A DNA stretch of 64,000 nucleotides from SAR86 cluster bacterium (lineage in GTDB: Bacteria; Pseudomonadota; Gammaproteobacteria; Magnimaribacterales; Magnimaribacteraceae). How positions within the stretch are numbered: position 1 is the stretch's first letter; each line of letters begins with the position of its first letter. Both the position numbers and the translations under genes were made by a program. The notes under the pieces were generated by a model that did no database searches, was not told the origin of the DNA, and worked only from the letters and a program-made list of their open reading frames with translations. Of this stretch, positions 33,401-40,741 are shown in pieces. The stretch is from positions 186,001-250,000 of the forward strand of contig CP097969.1 of the NCBI GenBank assembly GCA_023703575.1, written 5' to 3'.

Positions 33401-35452
33401 TTAAAATGTATATTCTAAACCAATATAGAATTCTCTTGGCAAACCTGGAAAATATCTATCTCCGCCAAATGCATTAAAGTCAGCTCTCTCAGCATAAGCT
33501 TTATCAAATATGTTCTCGGCCCTGATGTAAGTTTTGAAAGTATCATTTATTTTTCTGGTAAATCTAGCATGGTACAGGGTGTGCCCCTCATATTCGTGAA
33601 GATTTGCTGCATCAGTATAGTAAGAACTCATATACTCAATTTCAAAAGCAAGCGAAGTATCTTCGTTAAAATTTGAATTTAAGATTAAGTTAGCCATCAT
33701 CTTTGGAGCTGTATCAATCTCATTACCGATTCTTATTTTTTCTCTCATTGAAGTATCGGTTTCAAAGTCATACTTATGATCTCCATATGTAATGTTTGTA
33801 CTAATAATGTTGTTTGAACTGATGAGCCAATCTAGACTCAATTCAATACCTTTATGATCAGTTTTTCCATTATCTACGATAAAATTCTGCGAATCTCTGA
33901 AGATAGAGTTTTTCTTTTTACTTTGATAGATGCTTAGAGATCCACTCAACGATTGCCAATCATATCTACTGCCTACTTCCAACATAGTTAAAGTTTCCGA
34001 GTCGAGATCAGTAACATTCTGCTTTTTTTGTAATCTGTATGCTTCATTAATTTGTGGAGGTCTGAACCCTAAACTAATTTGGGCAAAATAATTGACAGAT
34101 TCGTAGTTTGTTATGATGCCAATCCTGGCACTTATCTCATTGAAGTCATCTGTTCTATCTGAGGGTCTATTGTAATAACAACCCCCAAATCCACATTTAG
34201 TTCCATCTTCTCTGGTATTTCCACTGATCATATTATTTGAGTAGTCATACTCAATAAATTCAGCTCTAGTATCAGCAAATAGGTAAAGATTCTTATTTAG
34301 AATGTAGTCTTCTATCCCTGCAAATACTGCAATAACAGTTGAATCCACTTCATAGTCATAATGCTTGCCTTGTGGTCTTGTGGCATTATTAAAAGCAGAG
34401 CTGGTAGTTAAAGCATCTTTTTGCGTTTCTGTCAGTTCAACCTTAGCAAAATCTAGCTGTAAGCCTTGTACAAAAGTAAAAGAGTTGTACTCTGAAATTC
34501 TTTGCAGATTTATCCCAAGACTTTTATGGTTATTCTCCTCAAGGGGAGTCCCTGGAAGGAAGTGTTGAAAAAACTTCATATCATTACTTCGTATATATGA
34601 GGTAATTGAATTAACAGTATTTTTGTCTTCTTTTGTTAATCTTAAAGATACTCTTTGTGAATTGGCATCTCGATATGCATCAGGATTAAAATTTCTCCTG
34701 CTAAACTCTTCATTTTTATAAGAATCTAAACCATTTACATATCCAGCAGTTTCTTGATTTAGATTTGTGAGTGTAGCTTTTAAAGCTGCATCCCATGAAG
34801 AGAGTGAAAAAATAGATTGGATTTTAATTTTTTGTTGATCGTACCCTGATTTATCCCTAAAGCCATCATTATTGGCAAAGTGACCATCAAAGCTCCAATT
34901 TTCTTGATTACTTGTTCTGATCTTAAAGTTTTTGTAGTTATTTGGCCCGACGTTTGTATAGAATTTATTTTCTGAAGTTATAGGTTTTGAGAGTATATTT
35001 ACAACACCATGCATTGCATTGGCACCATATCTTGCACTAGCTGGTCCAGTTATAGTCTCTAAACCTGAAGCCATTTCAAAAAATGTTTCAAATAATCCAT
35101 TAACGTTACAAAATCCAGTTGGCCTTACTGGAAGACCATCCTCTAATACAAGGAAAGAGCCACAAGCTCCCGGTCCAGTTAACACAGGAGATCGTATAGC
35201 AGTCAAATGTTCTTGACCTGACCCTCTGCTTATCCAGATTCCAGGAGACCTTCTAAATATCTGTTTAGGATGCTGTGCATCTAGATCATCAAGTTCTTTT
35301 TCACTTATTGAAGTGATGGATTGATTATTCGACCAGCCATTAAGGCTCGATAGCTTCTTTTCTAGAATGACTATCTCTTGAATTTCTTCAGAAAACGTAA
35401 TTCCTGAAAATAGCGATAATATAAAAGTTATGAGTGTTAATTTTTTAGCCAT
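33401..35452 (-). CDS. TonB-dependent outer-membrane receptor
   Basis: The 683-residue protein has a signal peptide (about residues 1-21), a plug domain with QIFRRSPGIWISRGSG, GPGACGSFLVLEDGLPV and ETITGPASARYGANAMHGVVNI, and a beta-barrel ending in the typical terminal aromatic (EYTF). It imports an unknown ligand using TonB energy. Paired cysteines occur in the plug (GACG and GFCN) and in a loop (TKCGFGGCYYN). No TonB/ExbBD or periplasmic uptake genes are adjacent. The RND pump lies 90 bases upstream on the same strand. Confidence 0.93.
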   Translation of the reverse strand: MAKKLTLITFILSLFSGITFSEEIQEIVILEKKLSSLNGWSNNQSITSISEKELDDLDAQHPKQIFRRSPGIWISRGSGQEHLTAIRSPVLTGPGACGSFLVLEDGLPVRPTGFCNVNGLFETFFEMASGLETITGPASARYGANAMHGVVNILSKPITSENKFYTNVGPNNYKNFKIRTSNQENWSFDGHFANNDGFRDKSGYDQQKIKIQSIFSLSSWDAALKATLTNLNQETAGYVNGLDSYKNEEFSRRNFNPDAYRDANSQRVSLRLTKEDKNTVNSITSYIRSNDMKFFQHFLPGTPLEENNHKSLGINLQRISEYNSFTFVQGLQLDFAKVELTETQKDALTTSSAFNNATRPQGKHYDYEVDSTVIAVFAGIEDYILNKNLYLFADTRAEFIEYDYSNNMISGNTREDGTKCGFGGCYYNRPSDRTDDFNEISARIGIITNYESVNYFAQISLGFRPPQINEAYRLQKKQNVTDLDSETLTMLEVGSRYDWQSLSGSLSIYQSKKKNSIFRDSQNFIVDNGKTDHKGIELSLDWLISSNNIISTNITYGDHKYDFETDTSMREKIRIGNEIDTAPKMMANLILNSNFNEDTSLAFEIEYMSSYYTDAANLHEYEGHTLYHARFTRKINDTFKTYIRAENIFDKAYAERADFNAFGGDRYFPGLPREFYIGLEYTF

Positions 35453-38740: not shown

Positions 38741-39642
38741 ACATCAGGAGAAAATGATTCCTTAACATTTACGGTTTGTCCTTGAAAGACATATTCTTGA
38801 CCTAAAGTAATGATCCTAGCTTCTTCACCTAAACCAGAAATCCACATACCTGTGTTTGTGTCTTCAAGTATTTTAATTTCTTTAAATTCAACTCTATTTT
38901 CAGAGGTAACAGTTCTTACTCCAAGTTTTCCTTGGTCATTTAGAGATAATATAGCTGGTGATATTTTATGAGCAGGCTCTTCTTTTCCTTTTATATAGAT
39001 CTCTGCTGATACACCATCCCTGATGCTTCTATCATTGTTTTCGACACTAATTTCGACTCTGAATGTTCTCGTATTTTTGTCTGCTGACGAAGCTATAAAA
39101 GTGACTTGACCCTTAATAAATCTGCCAGAAATTAACTTGGCTGTTGCTTCTGAGCCTAATTGAATCTGTGCGATATCTTTTTCTGCTATATCAGCAACTA
39201 CTAGCATTGGATCAGGATCAATCAATGAAGCACAAACGGCTCCAGTATTTAGAAAATCACCCTCATCAACTCTTAAGCTTTCAAGGTACCCTGAAAAGGG
39301 TGCAACTATTTTAGGATAAGCTTCTCTGCCTGCAATATAAAGTTGGCAGATTAAGTCTCCTTCTTTTACAAAGTCGCCTTGTTGTGCAGGTCGAGCTATT
39401 ACTCTACCGCTTACTTCGGCCCTGACTTGTACAAATTTATCAGCTTCAGTAAATCCACTTGATTTGAGTATTTGAGACTTGCTAGTAGCTTTGCTATTAA
39501 GAATAGTCACAGAAGATAAGGTATCTAAAGAAGAGTCTTTTTTTTCAAAAGTCTCCTCTTGTACTAAGCTACCAGAGATCATCCATATGACTAAAAAGGA
39601 TGCAAGGATAGAAGCGGTCTTGTAAGTTTGTTTGATTTTCAT
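38737..39642 (-). CDS. RND-pump periplasmic adaptor lacking the alpha-helical hairpin
   Basis: Membrane fusion protein partner of the RND permease. From the ATG at 39642 it has 301 residues, with an N-terminal membrane anchor (about residues 8-24). The first lipoyl half contains AEVSGRVIARPAQQGDFVKEGD and the second half IVAPFSGYLESLRV. Only about ten residues (near 102-111) join the halves, where most adaptors have a long coiled-coil hairpin that meets the outer-membrane channel. Beta-barrel and membrane-proximal regions follow. An upstream in-frame TTG at 39666 falls on the predicted -10 element and is rejected. Confidence 0.88.
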   Translation of the reverse strand: MKIKQTYKTASILASFLVIWMISGSLVQEETFEKKDSSLDTLSSVTILNSKATSKSQILKSSGFTEADKFVQVRAEVSGRVIARPAQQGDFVKEGDLICQLYIAGREAYPKIVAPFSGYLESLRVDEGDFLNTGAVCASLIDPDPMLVVADIAEKDIAQIQLGSEATAKLISGRFIKGQVTFIASSADKNTRTFRVEISVENNDRSIRDGVSAEIYIKGKEEPAHKISPAILSLNDQGKLGVRTVTSENRVEFKEIKILEDTNTGMWISGLGEEARIITLGQEYVFQGQTVNVKESFSPDV

Positions 39643-39653
39643 AAGATTTTTAG

Positions 39654-39675
39654 GTGTTATACACAACTATAACAC
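39654..39675. promoter_or_regulatory. Perfect inverted repeat, candidate operator of the efflux operon
   Basis: GTGTTATA and its exact reverse complement TATAACAC are separated by six bases. The dyad covers the -10 hexamer and the expected transcription start of the promoter below, a place where a dimeric repressor would block transcription. No T-run follows, so it does not look like a terminator. No regulator gene is adjacent. Confidence 0.55.
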
Positions 39676-39693
39676 TAAAATACCCTATGTAAA
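39666..39693 (-). promoter_or_regulatory. Candidate sigma70 promoter of the adaptor-permease operon
   Basis: On the minus strand, TTTACA (39688-39693) is followed after 16 bases by TATAGT (39666-39671). Each hexamer matches five of six consensus bases. The -35 begins right after the stop codon of the upstream gene. The predicted start near 39659 leaves an mRNA leader of about 18 bases before the ATG at 39642. Confidence 0.6.
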
Positions 39694-39694
39694 A

Positions 39695-40741
39695 CTAGAT
39701 TTGGTGCTTTTCTTTAAGTTTTTTAAAGTTTTCCTGGAGTGTTTCAGCATCTACCTTTTTTGAAGGTTTTGCGGAGCTGCTATCTTGTATCTCCCAACTA
39801 GATTCGATCCTTTTATCGATTTGTTTGGATAATTGAGGTGTTTGACCTTTATTTGCTCTTTCCCACTGAAATTTAACATGCTGAAGAAATTTACTATTCC
39901 AAGAGTTTAGAGATTGTCCTGATTCCTTCCAGTACATTATGAACTCTAGCTTTGCATTTTCTGCAAATTCTTTTGGTATATCTGTCATCTCTAGAATATC
40001 AAAAAAATCTGAATTAGGATTCCAATCTGAAGTCATGACTGATGGTGAATTGTCATTTTCTTTAATATCTTTAAATCTTCCCCATTGCCTTCGAATATGT
40101 GCAATAAATTTGCTGTTCCAAATATCAGATTCTTCCTTACGTTCTGTCCAATACAGTACAAATTCAGCAACTTCATTATCAATGAAATCTTCATTTATCC
40201 CTGAATTTATGAGTATTTCCTTAGCATCCATATCCGGAAACCAATTTTTATCGATGGGCTTAGTTTTCATTTTTTTGTTATCTTCGACTTCCTTAAGACG
40301 CCACTTTTTGATAACAAATCGTAGAAATTTGATACCCCAGTTTATGTCCTTCTCATTGCGCTCCTGATTAAGTTTTTTGAAATCTTCAATCTGGAGATTT
40401 GCAAAATCTTCTGGAATGCCATACTCATTAATTTGATCCATAACATCTTTATCAGGTACCCAGTTATCTCTATTGCTAATTAAAATTTTTTTATTCTGTT
40501 TTTTTGGTGAAAAATGAGGCACTCCATCAACGATCGTCTCGTTGATAAGACCGGTTTTAATAAGTCGAGTAAGGACTTCAAAGATTTTTTCATTTGACCA
40601 AAATGAAATATCTGAACAAATTTGTTGCATAGAAACTTGACTATGAAGGCTATCTTCTTGTTTTAAATGCTCAAGTAAGACGGCTTCTTCCAAGCCTATT
40701 GTGTTGGCAATTTCTTTATAGAAGGTTATCTTTGAAGTCAT
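39695..40741 (-). CDS. Protein with three tandem DnaT-like ssDNA-binding repeats
   Basis: A 348-residue protein. Residues 1-80 look like a winged-helix domain (SMQQICSDISFWSNEKIFEVL, then GLINETIVDGVPHFSP). Three repeats follow, each opening with Trp-x-Pro (Trp94, Trp167, Trp240) and closing with a Trp (147, 220, 293). Each contains a GI/IP-x-x-F segment, a W-x-x-KF segment and a basic helix. This is the pattern of the DnaT C-terminal single-strand DNA-binding domain. E. coli DnaT, a primosome protein, has one such domain and about 179 residues. A role in replication restart or ssDNA binding is inferred; no dnaC or priA is near. Confidence 0.85.
   Translation of the reverse strand: MTSKITFYKEIANTIGLEEAVLLEHLKQEDSLHSQVSMQQICSDISFWSNEKIFEVLTRLIKTGLINETIVDGVPHFSPKKQNKKILISNRDNWVPDKDVMDQINEYGIPEDFANLQIEDFKKLNQERNEKDINWGIKFLRFVIKKWRLKEVEDNKKMKTKPIDKNWFPDMDAKEILINSGINEDFIDNEVAEFVLYWTERKEESDIWNSKFIAHIRRQWGRFKDIKENDNSPSVMTSDWNPNSDFFDILEMTDIPKEFAENAKLEFIMYWKESGQSLNSWNSKFLQHVKFQWERANKGQTPQLSKQIDKRIESSWEIQDSSSAKPSKKVDAETLQENFKKLKEKHQI
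39863..40462 (-). repeat. Three protein-level repeats of 219 bases
   Basis: The Trp-to-Trp blocks of the DnaT-like gene span 40301-40462, 40082-40243 and 39863-40024. Their starts are exactly 219 bases (73 codons) apart and each block is 54 codons. Nucleotide identity is low, so the duplication is old, yet the spacing has been kept. Confidence 0.75.

Follow-up and report, generated by a model that had tools for sequence, protein, structure and literature searches.

Does an inverted repeat lying across the predicted -10 region of an efflux promoter serve as an operator and, if so, for which regulator? The question is raised by a SAR86 cluster bacterium with a 1.59-Mb genome, in the 64,000-nucleotide stretch that was analyzed here as a whole (the window, C1:186001-250000). 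Directly upstream of a minus-strand RND adaptor-permease operon stands the perfect dyad GTGTTATA-CACAAC-TATAACAC (contiguous GTGTTATACACAACTATAACAC), which a previous sequence-only reading took for a classic repressor-operator layout whose regulator acts from elsewhere in the genome. Very probably, a YtrA-type GntR repressor uses the dyad as its operator; the repressor gene lies at a distance of about 714 kb (C1:940168-940509), where it is first in an operon with an ABC transporter. The basis for this consists of the dyad itself, its copies and conservation, its co-occurrence with YtrA, the YtrA genes found beside it in other genomes, and its position over the predicted -10; from these we infer binding and repression by YtrA, and joint induction of the units behind its sites.

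The dyad and its predicted promoter

The sequence elements were found as originally described: the dyad at 39654-39675 and, on the minus strand from 39693 to 39666, TTTACA-16-TATAGT, which is the single promoter-like match within 39550-39800. The latter is no evidence by itself, since shuffled sequences give a mean of 0.8 such matches over this interval. The bare dyad, taken alone, is likewise no more than chance. The window has two perfect 8+8 dyads with a 6-nt gap (mean 2.4 in 30 shuffles) and 18 with gaps of 0-10 (22.9 in 30 shuffles), and the dyad word with up to three mismatches is matched once, against a mean of 0.46 in shuffles. It is the other copies in the host genome and the conservation in relatives that place the dyad far beyond chance.

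A matrix trained on the relatives' sites only, with the window site left out, gives the window operator a score of 33.4 and the second-best position in the window -9.9. The window site has the form GGTG-N16-CACT, with an imperfect inner part (CAC / ACT), and ends in CACT instead of the CACC of the tolC and ybbA sites, which are GGTG-N16-CACC. The ATG of the adaptor is at 39642, 11 nt beyond the dyad; the listed open reading frame opens at an upstream TTG (39666). The protein on the other side of the dyad has three DnaT-domain stretches, and its gene adjoins the pump in many genomes of the family.

Table 1. Positions of the features discussed, in window coordinates or, where so marked, on host contig C1
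Feature	Position	Strand	Remarks
Predicted operator, 24 bp	39653..39676	-	GGTGTTATACACAACTATAACACT on + strand; core dyad 39654-39675
-10 hexamer TATAGT	39666..39671	-	within upstream half-site; TGT before it (extended -10)
-35-like TTTACA	39688..39693	-	exact in 8/26 orthologous promoters; weakly supported
RND periplasmic adaptor, 301 aa	38737..39642	-	Pfam HlyD_D23 and HlyD_3; NCBIfam TIGR01730 above cut-off; first gene behind operator
RND permease, 1065 aa	35543..38740	-	Pfam ACR_tran 1.2e-146; 4-nt overlap with adaptor gene
TonB-dependent receptor	33401..35452	-	90 nt downstream of permease
DnaT-domain protein	39695..40741	-	upstream neighbor, ends 19 nt before dyad; not the regulator
Site, RND pump	C1:225654		window site
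Site, ybbAP/tesA	C1:627772		between divergent ybbA and tesA
Site, MFS gene	C1:675168		between divergent MFS gene and orphan 196-aa gene
Site, ytrA	C1:940529		small GntR gene with ABC transporter
Site, tolC	C1:1393664		between divergent tolC and peroxiredoxin gene
Orphan 196-aa protein	L116:1501-2088 (C1:675203-675790)		divergent from MFS transporter gene, dyad common to both

Copies in the host genome and in relatives

A genome-wide search for the same dyad, the check to which the sequence-only reading had pointed, returned five copies in the host (refined pattern GTGTNNTASTNNASTANNACAC, at most one mismatch; reversed control 0), three of which stand between divergent genes (Table 1). A sixth site, at C1:322492, has two mismatches and may be a chance match. 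Two matches to a looser pattern (C1:787960 and C1:1038020, two mismatches each) fall outside the refined one.

The same reading had also staked its claim on conservation in close relatives, and here the dyad is universal: the word GTGTTATAGTNNACTATAACAC, with up to three mismatches, is present in all 35 genomes of the host's family, where 81 sites match in the forward direction vs 4 with the reversed pattern. At this threshold it occurs in none of the 66 genomes from three sister families of the order, in which the reversed control gives 9 matches. The relatives have 78 sites in all, 72 of which were fetched (those of G001, G013 and G014 are absent, and G009 gives one of two). Twenty-five are upstream of an RND adaptor, 22 of tolC and 15 of a gene of about 198 aa, a class assigned by length and position; five precede YbbA-like ABC ATPases (by their neighbors, two of YbbAP and three of MacAB type), one lies at a contig edge beside a DnaT gene, and four are elsewhere. 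The repressor-operator layout over the -10 is thus not peculiar to the window, being kept upstream of the orthologous adaptor-permease operons of 25 relatives. At the outermost position, 66% of the relatives' half-sites have G and 34% have A.

A different palindrome is found in family f2. In the upstream regions of its TolC and adaptor genes the matrix finds no dyad (top score -4.3 over 50 loci), and several carry TGTAAAGT-NN-ACTTTACA, a word distinct from the dyad that is also present in some f1 and f4 genomes and that resembles a TyrR box. At L253-L269 (mainly family f2), the palindrome ATGTAAAGT-NN-ACTTTACAT precedes TolC or an RND adaptor in several genomes, sometimes in tandem.

The candidate regulator

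Which protein would act on these sites? A Pfam survey of the host genome, confined to the TetR and GntR families, returned three TetR proteins and a single GntR protein. The latter, a YtrA-type protein of 114 aa, is the best candidate, and the regulator apparently does act from elsewhere, as had been proposed. Its N-terminal GntR winged-helix domain (PF00392, residues 10-72) scores 46.8 bits against a cut-off of 27 and is followed by 42 residues, matching the short C-terminal part (about 50) that is a feature of the subfamily. The closest solved structure is 3tqn_A (113 aa, E 8.3e-33). The host ytrA gene has a dyad of its own, 19 nt before the ATG, and an ABC ATPase begins 1 nt behind the gene and is overlapped by the next frame, a permease, in what is predicted to be an operon.

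The distribution of the protein follows that of the dyad. GntR matches in open frames of 115-153 aa occur in 29 of the 35 family genomes vs 0 of the 66 others, three of which have GntR matches in larger frames (268-307 aa). The six dyad-bearing family genomes in which GntR was not detected (G005, G008, G014, G017, G018 and G023) are 63-89% complete, and genus g6 is without a detected GntR because its genomes fall among these six. In all 29 family loci the dyad is found upstream of ytrA, in 28 by the matrix and in one, which has an ambiguous base, by eye. The 28 sites score 10.2-26.3, under every training site (27.6-36.6).

Other regulators, or none?

The sequence-only reading had looked for TetR, MarR or similar proteins, and on this point the evidence favors the YtrA-type GntR protein instead. 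The strongest competitor is a TetR protein that the family also conserves (C1:737455-738003 on the host contig): 24 of 35 family genomes, among them members of all seven genera, give full-length matches with E below 1e-45, and TetR operators are often palindromes over promoters. However, there is no dyad upstream of its gene (over 24 family loci the matrix score peaks at 8.2, at a position inside the gene), and it has distant homologues in family f2, which has no dyad. No TetR gene was found next to the dyad, and among the matches listed for 80 of the at least 117 stretches of named genomes described below there is none to TetR within 1.5 kb of it, whereas YtrA genes are found there. This TetR protein is therefore very unlikely to be the regulator, since YtrA fits better. 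Around its recognition helix, K, R, Y, K, F and P are invariant in five aligned members (L172). The TetR protein at C1:165480, which we take to be SlmA, was rejected as well; it has a homologue in a genome of family f3, a family without the dyad. Another TetR protein (L148:3812-4699, C1:327291) has an unusually long open frame, the first part of which may be non-coding. No TetR was found in the eight f4 genomes searched.

The orphan protein of 196-198 aa was also considered as the regulator, since in the host its gene starts 13 nt past one of the dyads and the protein looks winged-helix-like by eye. However, it matches no Pfam or NCBIfam family, has relatives in 25 of 101 genomes, and was not found in six searched dyad-bearing genomes of genera g2, g3 and g7, so that it was rejected as the sole regulator and is a most improbable alternative. 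Equally improbable is that the dyad is merely a strong extended -10 promoter word that serves no repressor. In favor of such a word, 25 of 26 RND promoters (window included; TATACT in the other one) and 19 of 23 tolC promoters have TATAGT as part of the upstream half; the far half varies. However, the GTGT/ACAC ends are invariant on both sides in 69 distinct aligned sites (selected at up to three mismatches), and a mere promoter would require no second half-site and would not have to occur together with one particular regulator gene.

Comparison with known YtrA systems

The YtrA-type repressor has several published counterparts. YtrA proteins bind long palindromes, typically of 24 bp (PMC6746942). 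One is the YtrA-like protein of Xanthomonas citri, with its motif GGTG-N16-CACC (Zhou et al. 2017, cited in PMC6746942): compared by motif and protein type alone, both systems combine a YtrA-type GntR protein with a palindrome of 24 bp whose GTG/CAC ends lie well away from the center, whereas the window site ends in CACT and an RND pump and tolC are among the predicted targets of the present system. In Bacillus subtilis, YtrA responds to cell-wall antibiotics (PMC6746942) and its dyads have 13-bp spacing (PMC4730234). As in the present system, the regulator is a small GntR protein whose own gene is preceded by a dyad; the differences lie in the spacing, in its Gram-positive host, and in that several unlinked operons are involved here. 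In the survey of YtrA regulons by Suvorova et al. 2015 (PMC4494728), long palindromes and a GntR plus ABC operon are likewise found; those regulons mostly consist of a single ABC operon, divergent targets being very rare, while the host genome has five sites and divergent genes flank three of these. In archaea, a YtrA repressor has been described that covers the transcription start (PMC6746942), to which the predicted -10 overlap here may be likened.

The host YtrA has the testable features of its subfamily, and the window site is close, though not identical, to the published word. Among small-GntR models, the best match to the host protein is PmtR of the Staphylococcus aureus PSM exporter (NCBIfam NF047563, 4.6e-13), with a MocR-type PdxR model slightly better (3.4e-14), and the ABC ATPase behind ytrA has its best match in PmtA. 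An identification as PmtR itself was rejected, at 49 bits vs the NF047563 cut-off of 200. What appears to be new here is the predicted spread of a YtrA-type regulon onto RND, TolC, MacAB/YbbAP and MFS genes; a literature search limited to open-licence papers found no YtrA control of RND pumps or TolC.

How would a single repressor govern so many exporters?

A YtrA dimer would be expected to grip the GTGT ends of the 22-24-bp palindrome. Since the upstream half-site holds the extended -10 (TGTTATAGT), the bound repressor would, judging by this layout, keep RNA polymerase off the promoter. An inducing signal would then release YtrA, and the units behind all five sites would be derepressed together: the ABC operon headed by ytrA itself, the window's RND pump, tolC, ybbAP/tesA, and the MFS gene with its divergent 196-aa gene. 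If true, one repressor would join RND efflux, the outer-membrane channel and ABC exporters in an ocean bacterium that has few such regulators, and would show how such a small-genome host handles envelope toxins. It would also widen the YtrA subfamily from the control of local ABC operons to multi-pump regulons, with the operator word as a direct means of predicting such regulons in uncultured genomes.

The dyad and YtrA in other genomes

The perfect dyad is found in at least 117 stretches of named genomes, many of them titled gammaproteobacteria, Woeseiaceae, Haliea or Vibrio, together with some other groups. Often it precedes a gene of 115-135 aa, which encodes a YtrA-type GntR regulator and is followed by an ABC ATPase. 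Among the 117 stretches listed, a YtrA-like gene starts -80 to 400 nt from the dyad in 45 and is present anywhere in the stretch in 61; the 56 without one are what is expected for unlinked targets, and are no proof. Three SAR86-type YtrA proteins and 45 dyad-linked ones have their DNA-binding part in common.

In a class sample of 185 genomes, the exact dyad is present in four (reversed control in one) and matches to a YtrA profile in 14, which include all four dyad genomes (p = 2.1e-5; with the host left out, 2.8e-4). This test leans toward dyad-linked YtrA, since the profile was built from seven YtrA proteins standing beside a dyad. The exact dyad is absent from ten of the 14 genomes with YtrA.

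Targets of the same kind recur as well. In G125, which belongs to another family, a further dyad precedes an adaptor-RND operon, and among the matches listed RND or TolC genes lie behind the dyad in L285, L289, L299, L320 and L356. In G274 the gene behind the dyad encodes a MacA-like adaptor, and the gene on the other side, which ends there, an RND permease. For dyads that have no YtrA gene beside them, the products of the first genes were classified by Pfam for 85 of 95 proteins, the ten from nine SAR86-type RND loci being left out, the SAR86 loci L307 and L394 kept in, and six of the 72 loci having no protein; they include HlyD_3 (8), sigma-70 regions (8), OEP (4) and ACR_tran (3).

Has the same rewiring then taken place more than once? 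Because dyads precede RND or TolC genes in G125 and the five listed loci, it may be suggested, tentatively and with somewhat less than even confidence, that YtrA, elsewhere the regulator of one ABC operon, has become a master switch for export (RND, TolC, MacAB or YbbAP, MFS) in this SAR86 family, that other gammaproteobacteria have been rewired in the same way, and that YtrA-to-RND/TolC control is a recurrent, overlooked envelope-stress circuit.

Two minor observations concern the named genomes. In L284, L293, L294, L336 and L345 (Woeseiaceae or Proteobacteria), the gene that follows the dyad encodes a protein of 158-201 aa. One stretch titled Rhodobiaceae (L306, PBNH01000001.1) has a SAR86-like RND locus with a permease 92% identical to that of the window, and is perhaps mislabelled.
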